Positions 2,934 to 9,043 of a DNA stretch of 9,043 bases are shown piece by piece (position 1 is the stretch's first letter; each line of letters starts with the position of its first letter). The stretch covers positions 1 to 9,043 of the forward strand of contig CAMVNN010000028.1 of the NCBI GenBank assembly GCA_947168865.1, written 5' to 3'. The notes under the pieces were generated by a model that saw only the letters and a list, made by a program, of their open reading frames with translations, searched no databases and was not told the origin of the DNA. The position numbers and the translations under genes are program-made. Source of the DNA: an uncultured Bacillota bacterium. GTDB taxonomy: Bacteria > Bacillota_I > Bacilli_A > RF39 > UBA660.

Positions 2934-3638
2934 AAAATATTTCATAATTTCTTCCGTATATTTACCATTTTCATAAGTAATAATTGGTTCAAGAACTTTA
3001 AGACCAATTTTTCCATTCTTAATCGCTTCAACTAAAACAATATTAGCTTCTTCATTTTTCTTAGGATAAACAAATTGTACTTTCTTAACTTCAAGCTTAT
3101 TTTTCCTACAAATATCAATAATATCTGCTAGCCTTGCAGGACGATGAACTAACCCAAATACACCATTATGCTTTAAATAACGAGCTGATATCTTAACTAA
3201 AGACTCCAAATCTAAAGCAACTTCATGACGTGCAATTAACTTACTCGTTTTTTCACTCAAATAGCCATTCTCAGCCACTTTAAAGTACGGAGGGTTAGAT
3301 AATACCATATCGAATGATTCAGCCTCAAAAGAGGTCTTTTTGATATCTTCATTGATAATCTCAATTTGATCTTCTAACTCATTTATTTCAACTGATTTTC
3401 TAGCTAATTCAGCAATACTTTCTTGAATCTCAACTCCAACTATTTTAGCATCAGTTCTTGTTGATAAAACTAAAGGAATAGGCGCATTACCTGTTCCTAT
3501 ATCTAGTATTTTTTTAGTATTCTTTGGAATATCAATAAATTTAGGTAGAAGTACTGAATCAAGTGAAAACACAAATGATTCATTATCTTGATAAATCTTC
3601 AAATTCTTGTAATAAAGTAAATCATTCAACACTATCAT
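2919..3638 (-). CDS. trmN6: TrmN6/YabB-family adenine-N6 methyltransferase (tRNA1Val A37-type)
   Basis: This is a SAM-dependent N6-adenine methyltransferase of the YabB/TrmN6 (YfiC) family, whose known member methylates A37 of a tRNA-Val. The 239 residues include 'SFVFSLDSVLLPKFI' typical of the N-terminus, motif I 'LDIGTGNAPIP' (45-55), the acidic end of strand 2 'GVEIQ' and the catalytic 'NPPY' at 115-118. The exact tRNA target in this organism cannot be read from sequence. The ATG at 3638 overlaps the end of ricT by 17 bases, with only a weak ribosome site, so translation is probably coupled. The neighbour rsmI follows after one base, the order also seen in Bacillus (yabB near yabC/rsmI). 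Confidence 0.88.
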   Translation of the reverse strand: MIVLNDLLYYKNLKIYQDNESFVFSLDSVLLPKFIDIPKNTKKILDIGTGNAPIPLVLSTRTDAKIVGVEIQESIAELARKSVEINELEDQIEIINEDIKKTSFEAESFDMVLSNPPYFKVAENGYLSEKTSKLIARHEVALDLESLVKISARYLKHNGVFGLVHRPARLADIIDICRKNKLEVKKVQFVYPKKNEEANIVLVEAIKNGKIGLKVLEPIITYENGKYTEEIMKYFKGSD

Positions 3639-4413
3639 TAGCTTTAATCTCTGTTAAAGTGTTATTTCCATTATCTACTTTATAAGTACGATTTAAAATA
3701 TCAACACTCATAACAGTTCCTTCACCATCTTTAGTTTTAACCTTATCTCCAACTTTAGGTAAACCTTTTTTACATTCTTTATAGTTATCATCTTCATATT
3801 TTAAACAGCAAAGAAGACGACCACATAAACCGTTTATTTTAGTTGGATTTAAAGACAAATTCTGATTCTTGGCCATATTAATAGTAATTGAATCAAACTC
3901 ATCTAAAAATGAATTACAACAAATAGTACGACCACAAACACCTATTCCACCAACACAAGCAGCTTTATCACGAATACCTACTTGTCTTAATTCAATACGG
4001 GTTTTATATATATTAGCTAAATCTTTAGCAAGATCTCTGAAATCAACACGATCAGCTGAAATAAAATGAAATAATAATTGATTACGATCAAAGGTAAAAC
4101 TTGCATCAATAACATTCATATCAAGTTCATACCCAGCTGCTATTTCGCGGCACTTTTCTAATGCTTCTTCAGCATCTTTCAAGTTTCTTTCATATTTTTC
4201 TTCATCTTTTTTATTAGCTTTTCGAATAATTTTCTTCAAATCACCTTTAATTTGTTCTTTTTTTAAGCTAATAATATCAGTATCAATTGTACCTAATTGT
4301 AATCCTCTTTCTGTTTCAACTATTACTTTACTTCCTCTTTCGTATTTTTCACCTGATGGGTCAAAATAATATATACGAGGATTATTAAATATAACTCCGA
4401 TTACTTCTTGCAT
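3622..4413 (-). CDS. ricT: RicT/YaaT, PSP1-domain factor of the RNase Y-associated Ric complex
   Basis: In Bacillus RicT (YaaT) forms an Fe-S-containing complex with RicA and RicF that works with RNase Y in mRNA maturation. The 263 residues start 'MQEVIGVIFNNPRIYYFDP' and carry the PSP1 core around 100-215. Cysteines lie at 153, 160, 165, 166, 197, 202, 203 and 214, in 'CVGGIGVCGRTICC' and 'LCGRLLCC'; these are the conserved cluster ligand region. The ATG at 4413 has AGGAGG seven bases upstream inside holB, and its first base is the last of the holB stop (TAATG). It ends in TGA, a direct sign that TGA is a stop here. RicA and RicF partners are not in the window. Confidence 0.93.
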   Translation of the reverse strand: MQEVIGVIFNNPRIYYFDPSGEKYERGSKVIVETERGLQLGTIDTDIISLKKEQIKGDLKKIIRKANKKDEEKYERNLKDAEEALEKCREIAAGYELDMNVIDASFTFDRNQLLFHFISADRVDFRDLAKDLANIYKTRIELRQVGIRDKAACVGGIGVCGRTICCNSFLDEFDSITINMAKNQNLSLNPTKINGLCGRLLCCLKYEDDNYKECKKGLPKVGDKVKTKDGEGTVMSVDILNRTYKVDNGNNTLTEIKANDSVE

Positions 4414-5288
4414 TATAATTCCTCCTGCCTCAAGATAAATTTATCAAATTCCATTGGAATATTAACATTATATTTCAAATCATCTAAAACTTCAATAATA
4501 AGCTTGATTTTACTTACTATTTGCTCACTTGTGTTAGCTCCACTTATTCCTTTAATATTCGTCATATAACTATCAAATACAGAGACTTTCTGTAACGTCT
4601 TATATTCTAACACATCTTTATAAAATAAAAGCATTATATTAAATAAAATTGTCGTATCAGTTTTATCAAATTTATTATTTTTCAAGACTTTCTTTAAATG
4701 AATTAAAGCCTTACTCTTATTTTTATCAACATATTCAAGAAATTTAATCGATTCCTCGATTTTTTCTTCATCAATACTAACAGCTTCTGTTAAAAATATT
4801 GAATTCTTGATTTTCTCTAACTTATCCAGATTTCCACTATTTTTATGAACTAAAGGAACAAGTACACATCTTGATTTAATTGTTTCTAAAACTTGATTTA
4901 TATTATCAGTAACAAGTATGGCAACAATATTTGGTTCTGGTTCTTCTAAAAACTTGAGTAAAGCACTACTAGCTGATGCATTTAATTTTTCAGCATTTCT
5001 GATAATATAAACTTTATTTTCACCAACAATTGCTTTAGTTGAGAATCTTTCTTTTATTTCATCGATTTGCTCTTTTTTAATACTTGCCCCATCTGGTTCT
5101 ATTACTAAAGCATTAGCAGATATTTCAATTCGAGAATCAATTAAGAGATTGCAAAAAGAACAAGCGAGATCAAATCCTTGTTTTGTTCCATTATCATCTA
5201 TTAAATAAGCATTAGCAACACGTTTATTCTTGTAAGCATTATTTAATAGATTATAAGCAATTTCTTGAGTTTCTTTAAATTCTTCCAT
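4413..5288 (-). CDS. holB: DNA polymerase III delta' subunit
   Basis: Delta' is the rigid stator of the clamp loader, paired with DnaX and delta to load the sliding clamp. The 291 residues show the AAA+ fold without ATPase motifs: at 29-45 the P-loop is degenerate (no GKT), as is normal for delta'. 'NAEKLNASASSALLKFLEEP' follows (98-117), and the 'SRC' sensor motif stands at 139-141. The zinc cysteines found in many relatives are missing. I chose ATG 5288 because AGGAGG precedes it, although the gap is only three bases; an in-frame TTG 24 bases upstream lacks a site. The gene starts seven bases after the BofA-like gene, whose TAG overlaps this ribosome site. tmk and yaaQR, which precede holB in Bacillus, are absent. 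Confidence 0.9.
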   Translation of the reverse strand: MEEFKETQEIAYNLLNNAYKNKRVANAYLIDDNGTKQGFDLACSFCNLLIDSRIEISANALVIEPDGASIKKEQIDEIKERFSTKAIVGENKVYIIRNAEKLNASASSALLKFLEEPEPNIVAILVTDNINQVLETIKSRCVLVPLVHKNSGNLDKLEKIKNSIFLTEAVSIDEEKIEESIKFLEYVDKNKSKALIHLKKVLKNNKFDKTDTTILFNIMLLFYKDVLEYKTLQKVSVFDSYMTNIKGISGANTSEQIVSKIKLIIEVLDDLKYNVNIPMEFDKFILRQEEL

Positions 5289-5295
5289 AATCCTC

Positions 5296-5466
5296 CTAGA
5301 AAAATCTAACAAATATAAAGTAAAATACCGAAGGTATACCTAAAAAATAAAACATGGTCAAACTATATAAATTAATAGGTACATTGATATCAATTGGTTG
5401 CAAACAAATATTAAGTGTGTATAAAAACCCTAATGCAAAAACTATTTTCTTTAATCTTTTTAACAT
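5296..5466 (-). CDS. BofA-like small membrane protein
   Basis: The 56-residue protein has a basic start (MLKRLKK), a hydrophobic stretch at about 8-22 and a second at about 34-54. The segment 'INVPINLYSLTMFYFLGIPSVFYFIFV' matches the end of BofA-family proteins (a V/L-P-I-N start, then L-G-x-P). In Bacillus BofA sits just after recR and inhibits the SpoIVFB protease during sporulation, so both the sequence and the position fit. Whether this organism sporulates cannot be told here. The start at ATG 5466 is chosen because GAGG lies nine bases upstream; the in-frame ATG at 5481 overlaps that site. Its TAG stop lies inside the holB ribosome site. The family call rests on a short match. Confidence 0.6.
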   Translation of the reverse strand: MLKRLKKIVFALGFLYTLNICLQPIDINVPINLYSLTMFYFLGIPSVFYFIFVRFF

Positions 5467-5496: not shown

Positions 5497-6108
5497 TTAT
5501 TCTTTTTCTAGTACTGAACGATTAGATAAAGCAATTTCTAAAGTCATTGGATCTATATATTCCATATCAGTTCCCATTGGAACTCCATATGCAATTTTAG
5601 TTATTTTAATATTGTTTTTAGCTAATTTCTTTTGAATATATAAAGCCGTTGTCTCCCCTTCAACACTCGGTTTTAAGGCAAGTATTACTTCTTCTATTTC
5701 TTCTTTTTCAATTCGATTAAATAAACTATCTAAATTGATATCTTCTGGGTTAATACCATCAAGTGGTGAAATAAGTCCACCTAATACATGATAAACTCCT
5801 GAATAAGCCCCTGTTTTTTCAAATAAAACAAGGTTTTTCGTATTTTCAACAACACATATTACTTTATGATTTCTTGTTTGATCCAAACAAATTCCACATA
5901 ATTCTTCTTCAGATAAGTTATCACAAATCTTACAATGTCTTGTTTTTTCTTTAATTTCTTTTATAGAACTAGAAAAAACATCAATTATTTCATCATCAAG
6001 TTCAAGAGTTGCAAACGCTAGTCTTTCAGCATTCTTTTCACCTATTCCTGGTAGTTTCTTATAACATTCAATTAAATTATTAAATGTTTTGGGATACAAA
6101 TTAGACAT
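5497..6108 (-). CDS. recR: Recombination mediator protein RecR
   Basis: RecR works with RecO (and RecF) to load RecA onto SSB-coated single-stranded DNA during gap repair. The 203 residues have the expected layout: helix-hairpin-helix 'LPGIGEKNAERLAF' (19-32), a zinc finger with Cys59, 62, 71 and 74, a Toprim domain from about 82 ('VICVVE'), 'LKPSVEGETTALYI' (145-158) and a C-terminal 'YGVPMGTDMEYIDPMTL'. Its ATG shares one base with the yaaK stop (TAATG), and no strong ribosome site is present, which points to coupled translation. The dnaX-yaaK-recR trio is conserved in most bacteria. Confidence 0.97.
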   Translation of the reverse strand: MSNLYPKTFNNLIECYKKLPGIGEKNAERLAFATLELDDEIIDVFSSSIKEIKEKTRHCKICDNLSEEELCGICLDQTRNHKVICVVENTKNLVLFEKTGAYSGVYHVLGGLISPLDGINPEDINLDSLFNRIEKEEIEEVILALKPSVEGETTALYIQKKLAKNNIKITKIAYGVPMGTDMEYIDPMTLEIALSNRSVLEKE

Positions 6109-6404
6109 TAGAATAAACCTGGCATTCCTTTTGTATATTTACCCATTTTCTTTTCAGTATCTTCATCAATTTTCTTCATAGCATCATTAATTGCTACTTG
6201 TAAAATATCTTGTAACATTTCAATATCATCTTTATCCATAGATTCTTGATCTATTTTAATTTCAACGATTTCTTTTTTACCATTAACTTTTACTTTAACA
6301 AATGATGATTCTCCTTCATAGATAGTATTATCTATATTTTCTTTTTCCTTCATCATTTCTTTTTGAATTTTTTGTGCTTCGCGCAACATTGCTTGCATAT
6401 TCAT
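6108..6404 (-). CDS. yaaK: YbaB/EbfC-family nucleoid-associated protein
   Basis: The 98-residue protein matches the YbaB/EbfC/YaaK family: a start 'MNMQAMLREAQKIQKEM', a central 'VKVKVNGKKEIVEIKID' sheet region, 'LQDILQVAINDAMKKI' and a Gly/Met-rich end ('KYTKGMPGLF'). Family members are dimeric DNA-binding proteins, and the tie to dnaX and recR is conserved without a settled reason. ATG 6404 has AGGAG nine bases upstream; a second ATG two codons later is less well placed. It begins 12 bases after dnaX ends. Confidence 0.93.
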   Translation of the reverse strand: MNMQAMLREAQKIQKEMMKEKENIDNTIYEGESSFVKVKVNGKKEIVEIKIDQESMDKDDIEMLQDILQVAINDAMKKIDEDTEKKMGKYTKGMPGLF

Positions 6405-6416
6405 AATTTATCTCTC

Positions 6417-8123
6417 CTATTCATATGATATTATATCAGAAAAATTTTCATCTAGAAAATCTCCTGTTACTTTACTTAAATTATTAATTAAATTCCTTAT
6501 TTCTTCTGTTTCTTCTTCTTTAATATATTTCTTCTTTTTAGAATTGAATTCTTCTTTAATTACTTCCCATTCTTCATTATTAATAGAAATTACTTTAAAA
6601 TCATTACCTGTGATTATTTTAATTAAAGATTCAACTCTTAGAATATTTTTATTGAATTTCTCACTTTCAATTTCTTCATCATAAACATACATCATGTATT
6701 CTTTACTAGCTGCTTTTAATTTGCCATCAAGCATAATTGAGGCAATCTCATTATATTCTAAATCAACAGCATAGTCTTTAACACTATCCATTTTCTTTTG
6801 AAGTGAATTAAGTGTTCTTTTATCAAACTCTGCTAATGTATTATTAATTCTTATTTCTTTTACTTTATTTAAATCTTCCGAAGAAACTTTAACTTCTTCT
6901 TTAGTTTCTTCCTTTTTTTCTTCTTTTTCTTCTTTTTCTTCATTTAATTCTTGAAACTCTTTTTTAATAGCTTCGACATATTTAGGATTAACTATTGCTT
7001 TAGAAGGTTTCTTTATTTCTTCTTTTGATTCAACTTTTACTTCTTTAATTACCTTTTCTTCTTTAACCTCATTTTCAATTGAATTAATCATGAGCATTTC
7101 AAAGACAATTTTTTTATTACTTACAGTTTTAATTTCACCTGCTGCGACATTAAATTTTCTTATTAATTCAATTAATCTTTCAATTGAAACTAAATCTTTT
7201 AATTCATCATAATCATTTTTAGAATAAATATTATCTTCAACTTTAATATTATTTTTAATTAAAACAAGATTGTGAGCTAGATAAATCATTTCGTCAATCA
7301 ACTTTGGAAAATCAACACCTACTTCTTCAGCATTATCAATTATATTAAAACATGACTGAATATCATTTTTAACAATTGAAACAAATAGTTTTTTTGTTTC
7401 TTCACAAGATAAAATTCCATTTATTTTATGAACATCATCGATTGTAATATTTTCAGAATAGGCCCATACTTGTTCAAGTAAACTAATAGCATCACGCATT
7501 CCACCATTTGCTAATCTTGCTATTTCAGTTAAGGCATCATCTTCTATTTTAATATTTTCTTGCTTACATATATAATTTAATCTTTCAATGATATTTTCAT
7601 TGGTAATTGCCCTGAAATCTAATCTTTGACAACGCGATAATATAGTTGCAGGAATTTTATAAACTTCAGTTGTTGCAAGAATAAAAATTGCATGAGCAGG
7701 TGGTTCTTCAAGGGTTTTTAATAAAGCATTAAAAGCACTTGTAGAAAGCATATGAACTTCATCTATAATATATACTTTGTATTTAGAAATCGATGGTACA
7801 AGGGCTATTTTATCTCTCAAATCACGTATTTCATCTACTCCATTATTTGATGCTGCATCAATTTCAACAATATCAGTATTGTTTTGTGTACATACTACAC
7901 ATTTGTTACAAGGACATCCATCTTTTGGATCAAGGCAGTTAATAGTACGAGCAAATATTTTAGCAATACTTGTCTTACCAGTACCTCTGATTCCTGCAAA
8001 CAAATAAGCATGAGCTATACGATTATTCTTAATTGCATTCTTTAAAATCTTAACCGGAACTTCTTGTCCAACTACTTCATCAAAGTTACTCGGTCTATAT
8101 TTTCTATACAACGATTGATACAT
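6417..8123 (-). CDS. dnaX: DNA polymerase III tau (gamma/tau) subunit
   Basis: DnaX is the motor of the clamp loader; tau also ties it to the polymerase and helicase. The 568 residues show Walker A 'GIRGTGKT' (44-51), zinc ligands Cys63, 72, 75 and 78, Walker B 'DEVH' (121-124) and the 'SRC' finger (163-165). An oligomerisation domain runs to about 365, a Glu/Lys-rich linker (about 365-420) follows, then a C-terminal tau region ('INNEEWEVIKEEF'). The ATG has GAGGTGAT seven bases upstream. Within the linker, codons 402-404 (GAA AAA AAG) hold the heptamer A_AAA_AAG. A -1 shift would add Gly-Arg-Asn and stop, giving a 407-residue gamma-like form (see findings). It heads the operon and ends in TAG. 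Confidence 0.97.
   Translation of the reverse strand: MYQSLYRKYRPSNFDEVVGQEVPVKILKNAIKNNRIAHAYLFAGIRGTGKTSIAKIFARTINCLDPKDGCPCNKCVVCTQNNTDIVEIDAASNNGVDEIRDLRDKIALVPSISKYKVYIIDEVHMLSTSAFNALLKTLEEPPAHAIFILATTEVYKIPATILSRCQRLDFRAITNENIIERLNYICKQENIKIEDDALTEIARLANGGMRDAISLLEQVWAYSENITIDDVHKINGILSCEETKKLFVSIVKNDIQSCFNIIDNAEEVGVDFPKLIDEMIYLAHNLVLIKNNIKVEDNIYSKNDYDELKDLVSIERLIELIRKFNVAAGEIKTVSNKKIVFEMLMINSIENEVKEEKVIKEVKVESKEEIKKPSKAIVNPKYVEAIKKEFQELNEEKEEKEEKKEETKEEVKVSSEDLNKVKEIRINNTLAEFDKRTLNSLQKKMDSVKDYAVDLEYNEIASIMLDGKLKAASKEYMMYVYDEEIESEKFNKNILRVESLIKIITGNDFKVISINNEEWEVIKEEFNSKKKKYIKEEETEEIRNLINNLSKVTGDFLDENFSDIISYE
6881..6918 (-). promoter_or_regulatory. Candidate -1 programmed frameshift site in dnaX
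   Basis: The minus strand has A_AAA_AAG in the dnaX reading frame (6918-6912). A perfect 9-bp stem GAAGAAACT / AGTTTCTTC (6911-6903 with 6889-6881, 13-base loop) follows at once. The -1 frame stops at TAA 6903-6901. The heptamer is the same as that used in Escherichia coli dnaX. Weak points are the absence of spacing between heptamer and stem and the lack of a clear upstream Shine-Dalgarno stimulator. Confidence 0.5.
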
Positions 8124-8153: not shown

Positions 8154-8185
8154 AAAACAAAAGGCTTATTTATTCCTTTTGTTTT
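8154..8185 (-). terminator. A/U-rich terminator overlapping the end of tadA
   Basis: An 11-bp perfect stem (8185-8175 with 8164-8154) has its 5' arm in the last codons of tadA and the TAA in the 10-base loop. A T-rich stretch follows. The stem has few G-C pairs, so termination may be partial. Confidence 0.5.
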
Positions 8186-8597
8186 TAAAAAAATTATTAA
8201 GTATTTCTGCTATTTCTTTAGCACAGATCTTTTGAACAATTTCTATCTTAGGCATATAGTTAATATATTTAGTAAATCCCATTTTTTCATTAGCAACACC
8301 ATATACAATTTTTTTAATATTAGTTCTGGTTATTGCACCATAGCACATCAAACATGGCTCCATTGTCACATACATAACACAATCATCTAAATATTGATTA
8401 CCTATTTTCTTTATTGCGTCATTTATACAATTAATTTCAGCATGGGCATGTACAGATTTTTCTTTTTCACACTGATTGTAAGATTTGGATATAACGACAT
8501 CATTTTTAACAATAACTGCTCCAACTGGTATATCAGACTCTTTTAAACTTTTTAAAGATTCTTCAATTGCAATTTTCATATATTTTTCATCATTCAT
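8166..8597 (-). CDS. tadA: tRNA-specific adenosine deaminase TadA
   Basis: TadA converts adenosine 34 to inosine in the anticodon of tRNA-Arg(ACG), allowing one tRNA to read several arginine codons. The 143 residues show the cytidine-deaminase fold with zinc ligands His52, Cys82 and Cys85 and the proton-shuttling Glu54 ('HAEI' and 'PCLMC'). 'DIPVGAVIV' near the start and 'IVYGVANEKMG' after the second motif are also typical. ATG 8597 is chosen because GGAG lies eight bases upstream; a longer frame to 8624 would run into the SRP RNA. No promoter fits between the SRP RNA and this gene, so it is probably co-transcribed with that RNA. Confidence 0.95.
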   Translation of the reverse strand: MNDEKYMKIAIEESLKSLKESDIPVGAVIVKNDVVISKSYNQCEKEKSVHAHAEINCINDAIKKIGNQYLDDCVMYVTMEPCLMCYGAITRTNIKKIVYGVANEKMGFTKYINYMPKIEIVQKICAKEIAEILNNFFKNKRNK

Positions 8598-8611
8598 AAG
8601 TATTACTCCAT

Positions 8612-8689
8612 AAAAAGAGCGCACACACTCATTGATTCTTAAGGCTGCTATCTTCCGATCCTGACCTGGTTCAAATATAAATGTTGCGC
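8612..8689 (-). ncRNA. ffs: Bacterial signal recognition particle RNA (small, 4.5S-like)
   Basis: The RNA binds Ffh and targets nascent membrane proteins to the Sec translocon. The minus strand carries the invariant helix 8 core ACCAGGTCAGG, a GGAA tetraloop and AGCAGCC (8669-8641). The loop-closing pairs differ from the usual ones but still pair (U-A and A-U in place of C-G pairs), which supports a real structure. GCGCA at 8689-8685 pairs with TGCGC at 8623-8619, closing a single rod of about 75 nt, and five U's follow. The Alu part found in Bacillus scRNA is absent, so it is the short form known from Mollicutes and E. coli. Confidence 0.92.
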
Positions 8690-8695
8690 AAAATA

Positions 8696-8724
8696 ATTAT
8701 ATAATATTTATCTATTTTTAACAA
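8696..8724 (-). promoter_or_regulatory. Promoter of the SRP RNA
   Basis: TTGTTA (8724-8719) and TATAAT (8701-8696) are separated by exactly 17 bases. The expected start, seven bases on, is G8689, the first base of the closing SRP RNA helix. The nearest parS site lies 10 bases above the -35 box. Confidence 0.8.
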
Positions 8725-8734
8725 ATATTATTAA

Positions 8735-9043
8735 TGTTTCACGTGGAACATTGCTTCTTTATTCAATCTTTATTCTATGTTTCACATGGAACATTGCTTC
8801 TTTATTCAATTTCATTTCTATGTTTCACGTGGAACATTATTCTTTTATTCAATTTTTATTCTATGTTTCACGTGGAACATTATTCTTTTGTTCAATCTTT
8901 ATTCTATGTTTCACGTGGAACATTATTTTTTTATTCAATCTTTATTCTATGTTTCACGTGGAACATTGCTTTTTTTATTCAATTTCATTTCTATGTTTCA
9001 CGTGGAACATTATTCTTTTGTTCAATCTTTATTCTATGTTTCA
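8735..9043. repeat. Tandem parS array, 43-bp period (7 full copies and 1 cut by the window edge)
   Basis: Sixteen-base sites begin at 8735, 8778, 8821, 8864, 8907, 8950, 8994 and 9037. On the minus strand they read TGTTCCACGTGAAACA, an exact match to the ParB (Spo0J) target TGTTNCACGTGAAACA. Intervals are 43 bases six times and 44 once. Spacers are 27-28 bases, T-rich and similar to each other; those at 8880-8906 and 9010-9036 are identical. The array runs off the right end, so the true copy number is unknown. It should nucleate ParB and load SMC near the replication origin; this role is inferred from the motif. Confidence 0.93.
8778..8793. other. Variant parS site with a changed central base
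   Basis: The second copy reads CACATG on the plus strand where every other complete copy has CACGTG. The change lies in the palindromic centre contacted by ParB and should lower affinity. Confidence 0.7.

Follow-up and report, generated by a model that had tools for sequence, protein, structure and literature searches.

What is a regular tandem array of parS sites doing at the edge of a housekeeping operon, and is it the centromere of the chromosome that carries it? One study (PMC7333895) treats as unsettled both why bacteria differ in their number of parS sites and what makes these sites cluster. The initial annotation of this DNA took chromosomal parS sites to be normally single and dispersed. 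This is too strong, as the available parts of two sources describe parS sites clustered within 5-40 kb in most bacteria (PMC8357415) and 22 sites within 3 kb in Myxococcus xanthus (PMC3899335). According to the same part of PMC8357415, widely scattered parS sites are found in few lineages, Bacilli among them, and clustered strong sites were argued to avoid SMC collisions in Bacillus subtilis. The window analysed here is the whole stretch of 9,043 nucleotides from an uncultured Bacillota bacterium, and it closes with such an array.

The array occupies positions 8735..9043 of the plus strand and runs past the window end. Seven complete sites lie at 8735..8750, 8778..8793, 8821..8836, 8864..8879, 8907..8922, 8950..8965 and 8994..9009, followed by the first seven bases of an eighth (9037..9043), which is truncated by the window end. 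The start-to-start intervals are 43, 43, 43, 43, 43, 44 and 43. Our motif search thereby reproduced all that the initial annotation had read, namely the seven complete sites, the eighth begun at the edge and the period of 43 (once 44); the tandem parS array as first described is real. Six of the seven complete sites, including the first, read TGTTTCACGTGGAACA (TGTTCCACGTGAAACA on the minus strand), a perfect fit to TGTTNCACGTGAAACA, and the single deviating site is the second, with one central change (CACATG). These palindromic repeats have the 16-bp parS palindrome of a chromosomal ParABS centromere. With up to three mismatches allowed, the window holds 7 matches, against a mean of 0.04 and a maximum of 1 in 200 shuffles. 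Over the six complete units of 43/44 bases, 1 of 96 parS letters departs from the consensus, compared with 20 of 162 spacer letters (Fisher p 0.0007, for tandem copies that are not independent of each other). Since the spacers vary from copy to copy, the array is not one read repeated by the assembler.

All the genes leading away from the array lie on the minus strand, and some of their names are inferred from Pfam domains. The first is ffs, encoding the bacterial small SRP RNA (8613..8695), which is also present in the array locus of relatives. It is followed leftward by a gene with deaminase domains by Pfam in the place of tadA (8166..8624; the name is inferred, and the ATG at 8597 is the probable start), dnaX for a clamp loader subunit (6417..8123), a ybaB family gene (6108..6404) and recR (5497..6108). 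Beyond a small ORF come a holB-like clamp loader subunit gene (4413..5312; delta'-type domain, name inferred), the yaaT/PSP1 gene (3622..4413), which served as anchor in relatives, and two methylase-type genes. At the left end of the window, 517-1185 and 1281-1919 encode an ORF6N-domain protein and a Cro/CI-type HTH protein, possibly the cargo of a mobile element. The GC skew is negative in every row of the window, so that replication most likely runs leftward from the array end. The skew check proposed by the initial annotation therefore fits replication entering from that side.

Because the repeats are palindromic and adjoin ffs, they could in principle act as RNA, in the leader or the terminator of this gene. 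A promoter-like site for ffs on the minus strand (TTGTTA-17-TATAAT, 8696..8724), 10 bases from the array, lies between the array and ffs. It is a consensus match only and a weak argument, as the stretch holds 2 promoter-like sites where 3.3 are expected by chance and the ffs site does not stand above chance. On this weak evidence the RNA role was rejected. Moreover, in relatives the sites are found on either side of tadA or even inside dnaX, and we consider a function of the repeats as RNA highly unlikely.

To place the array in its chromosome, we relied on relatives. Close parS pairs were scanned in genome contigs (at least 118 stretches, from which no frequencies are drawn) and in viral contigs (95 stretches). 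Among the stretches listed, the larger clusters include one in uncultured Bacilli with 10 sites at 55 bp (L108) and another, also from uncultured Bacilli, with four parS at 44 bp between ffs and tadA (L040). The reference set consisted of 385 genomes of one order, probably RF39, of 0.6-1.9 Mb, chosen around a third record of this kind, L045 (G002), and including the genome of L108. The window likely belongs to the same order; its YaaT is 56-62% identical to the closest relatives among the best matches listed in these genomes. A search of 395 genomes of the class at E 1e-106 returned no close relative of the window; this limit is stricter than the best match in the order, and the result means merely that nothing closer is present there. 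Proteins 73-94% identical to those of the window were found in a search that gives no genomic context.

Of the 385 genomes, 32 have a dense parS triple, defined as three consecutive sites separated from one another by 10-40 bases; the reversed control pattern occurs in none. We fetched 30 array loci and L266, leaving out G345, and in 31/31 of these array genomes (of the 32) the array lies beside or within the gyrA-tadA-dnaX segment, the very slot it has in the window. The ffs gene was present in all 18 loci scanned (14 array loci, one locus at a contig start and three without a dense triple). In G274, the gene order is noc-like, rsmG, mnmG, mnmE, jag, yidC, rnpA, dnaA, dnaN, a small unnamed gene, recF, gyrB, gyrA, array, tadA, dnaX, with tadA and dnaX named by BLAST to the window and the others by NCBIfam; L266 has the same genes so far as tblastn covered it. 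The array and the dnaA-rnpA gap (oriC) are about 9 kb apart in the five stretches of G003, G274, G302, G177 and G387; for G003, G302 and G387, genes were named by their order and size. Thus, the suggestion that the array marks the origin side of the tadA-dnaX operon is borne out by the relatives, in which dnaA and oriC lie about 9 kb from the array where measured. The genome of the window presumably follows its relatives, and gyrA is predicted to sit directly past the window end. As side observations at this locus, L231, L232, L257 and L040 each have three parS in frame inside dnaX, translating as NVPRET- or NVSRGT-type repeats, and L311 (G231) has two SRP RNA matches in one locus (5088-5184 and 5529-5609), the second barely above the gathering score.

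The remaining 353 genomes of the order show no dense triple, which indicates that the array form is not required, although some arrays are masked by assembly breaks and longer periods. Of 71 plus-strand yaaT matches among the best ones listed, 23 are less than 10 kb from the start of their contig, 13 of them at 4.3-5.0 kb, a bin picked after the list of best matches had been viewed. The first 200 bases of these 13 contigs hold at least two parS in nine cases (one with its first base cut), one in three and none in one. Periods of about 73, 78 and 96 bp at contig starts fall outside the dense-triple pattern. The figure of 32/385 is therefore an underestimate, because assemblies break at the array and long periods escape the pattern. 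The window itself also seems to break there, and the array may explain why draft assemblies of this group end at this spot.

Dense centromere arrays are known from plasmids. The sopC centromere of the F plasmid consists of tandem direct repeats, each with an inverted repeat, at a period of 43, and the window array resembles it in all three respects. A centromere of this kind belonging to a plasmid or phage, either on a mobile element or integrated, would account for this form, and one contig of the viral collection (L192) has 8 parS at 6137-6445, mostly at 38 bp (five steps). Pfam recognised none of the three ORFs scanned in this contig, and the oriC-region genes looked for were all absent from it. 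However, sopC has another motif and is carried on a plasmid, whereas the array in the window has the chromosomal parS motif, adjoins a housekeeping operon and is flanked in relatives by housekeeping and oriC genes. Nor did it match any of 72,556 plasmid or 50,697 phage records, which speaks against a plasmid contig, one of the findings that the initial annotation would have counted against a chromosomal centromere. We therefore reject an F-type centromere and regard a plasmid or phage origin of the array as very improbable.

We next looked at how parS sites are distributed within whole genomes. In 6/6 array genomes searched with one mismatch allowed, all perfect parS sites were at the array locus: 10 in G003 (and one more with a mismatch), 11 in G274, 4 in G302, 7 in G177, 5 in G387 and 6 in G214, where they are split between two contig ends, interpreted as opposite flanks of the locus. 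The reversed control gave a single match in these six genomes, in G214. Off the locus, G387 has two matches with one mismatch, and in G002 a site with up to two mismatches lies about 11 kb from the array (L269). We also searched 15 genomes lacking the triple, picked for long contigs and not at random. In eleven of them there are 1-7 perfect sites, which in each genome share one contig, span no more than about 1.2 kb and lie at a distance of 3.8-5.4 kb from yaaT. In the other four, the stretch fetched holds variants at the corresponding position, namely CGTTTCACGTGAAACA, two copies of TGTTCCACGTGAAACT and, in two of these genomes, TGTTGCTCGTGGAACA or its complement in 5-6 copies. In total, every perfect site is at this locus in 17/17 tested genomes with canonical sites. 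Many scattered single sites, which would have spoken against a compact one-locus centromere in a reduced genome, were thus absent from the relatives tested, and these small genomes support that proposal. Elsewhere in the class, seven of eleven genomes searched contain parS sites (1-3 each); six of the seven have them all at one place, and G404 has one more on another contig. Single-locus placement is hence not confined to this order, and the special part is the dense array.

The proteins that would act on such a locus are present. ParB was detected above cut-off in 32/32 array genomes and in 8/8 others, so that the absence of parB, likewise named in the initial annotation as an argument against a centromere, does not apply to the relatives. 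Its best relative of solved structure is Stage 0 sporulation protein J (6sdk). A ParA-like gene adjoins parB in both relatives examined, SMC was found in 11/11 genomes tested, and parB lies 17-51 kb from the array in genomes with both on one contig. Taking position, single-locus distribution and machinery together, we consider it highly likely that the array is the ori-proximal centromere of its chromosome, with a predicted position between gyrA and ffs-tadA-dnaX about 9 kb from oriC, where ParB would bind and SMC would be loaded.

A second ParB-family gene, Noc-like where examined, is present in 30/32 array genomes, and the sites might instead serve this paralogue and mark a zone of division inhibition. 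In L259 (G288), at 9-334, units of 50-53 bp alternate 7 parS with 6 sites that read ATTTCCCAGGAAAT/ATTTCCCGGGAAAT and resemble the Noc box, and at least one Noc-box-like site with up to two mismatches was seen in 11 of 30 array loci, a count made without a chance control. However, the repeats of the window have the letters of parS, and the window has no match to the Noc box at up to three mismatches. A Noc-binding array was rejected on this ground, and we judge it very improbable that the sites belong to the paralogue. In G274, the noc-like gene product matched the Noc model below cut-off, and ParB matches that model likewise. The Noc-like paralogue (L262 14970-16535, L264 9806-11470 and others) has a long C-terminal extension, with open frames of up to 747 aa, and the two proteins scanned had no Pfam domain beyond ParB_N and HTH_ParB.

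A separate observation concerns L308 (G278) and L309 (G324), which have no canonical parS in the genome and 5-6 copies of TGTTGCTCGTGGAACA or its complement at the locus. Their ParB proteins read S-H-A-K where most others read G-H-A-R. This change as the cause of the variant sites is weakened by 4umk, presumably the Helicobacter ParB, which also has H-A-K, and by G262, which has S-H-A-R with canonical sites.

We then considered the regular form of the array. The initial annotation had attached meaning to the period of 43 bp, both as shared with sopC and as about four helical turns, which would set ParB dimers on nearly the same face. Neither idea holds in the relatives. Their periods span 26 to 96 bp, so that 43 bp has no special meaning and its equality with sopC is likely a coincidence, and 29 period values show no helical phasing (Rayleigh p 0.97). 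Copy number, too, differs widely between genomes. By eye, the spacers are similar within a genome and dissimilar between genomes. Over 14 arrays, 27 of 1360 parS letters are changed against 216 of 2577 spacer letters (p 1e-17), a count that assumes independent tandem copies and could hide decayed sites, since copies were located by parS with up to three mismatches. As the steps in these arrays are regular, internal copies do not seem to have been overlooked; L272 and L273, both among the 14, are two ends in one genome.

These results can be read in two ways, both of which accept the centromere. In the first, which contests just the benefit of the array, its regular tandem form would be neutral: copies are gained and lost through slippage close to oriC, and one or two sites are enough. 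The wide variation of period and copy number and the lack of a dense triple in most genomes of the order agree with this, as does the sufficiency of a single parS in P. aeruginosa, according to the title of PMC4368675. However, the motif is less changed than the spacers over the 14 arrays, even if only 6/14 are significant at 0.05 when taken singly, and the same slot is occupied by an array in many genomes. We see neutrality as possible but lean against it. In the second reading, the array is most likely a satellite-like tandem form of such a centromere, to which ParB would bind. Its full version supposes that the chromosome in this order has a single centromeric locus and no other centromere. 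Within each genome the parS repeats of this locus would be copied and homogenised, and from one genome to another the spacer, the period and the number of copies would turn over in the manner of eukaryotic centromeric satellites, parS playing the part of the conserved box; the repeats may reach into the dnaX frame, interleave with Noc boxes or change the parS letters. We put this full version forward tentatively, as a possibility of nearly even weight.

The closest precedent is the parS cluster of M. xanthus, in which many chromosomal sites are likewise packed at one ori-proximal place; the available text of PMC3778016 gives 24 sites about 30 kb from ori. That cluster binds ParB in vitro, has a mean spacing of ~140 bp with sites in both orientations and lies ~4 kb from parA, whereas the arrays described here consist of direct repeats with periods of 26-96 bp, adjoin gyrA and tadA, and are 17-51 kb from parB. 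B. subtilis shares the type of motif, together with ParB and SMC; its preferred parS cluster is ~60 kb wide with further sites distal to it, and the part of PMC8357415 available describes no tandem array. In the open-licence literature we found no report of such parS arrays in this group, and none of the items retrieved with RF39 and parS concerned segregation by title. The array is most likely a parS centromere of the chromosomal type, with an unusual form and a consistent position.

In the mechanism that we propose, a ParB dimer would bind at each parS and, on uptake of CTP, form a closed clamp able to slide. Such clamps would spread over the adjacent DNA, ParA would pull the complex and SMC would be loaded at the locus. 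This order of small-genome Bacilli would keep its parS sites together at one locus. In a minority of genomes, tandem duplication would have turned the locus into a regular array, and such an array would multiply the entry of ParB with SMC loading still at a single point. The number of parS copies may therefore matter. With regard to widely scattered parS, this order would be the opposite extreme. With canonical sites at one point in 1 to 11 copies and periods from 26 bp up, its genomes form a natural series for testing copy number against ParB flux, and the same genomes allow testing whether single-point SMC loading avoids collisions.
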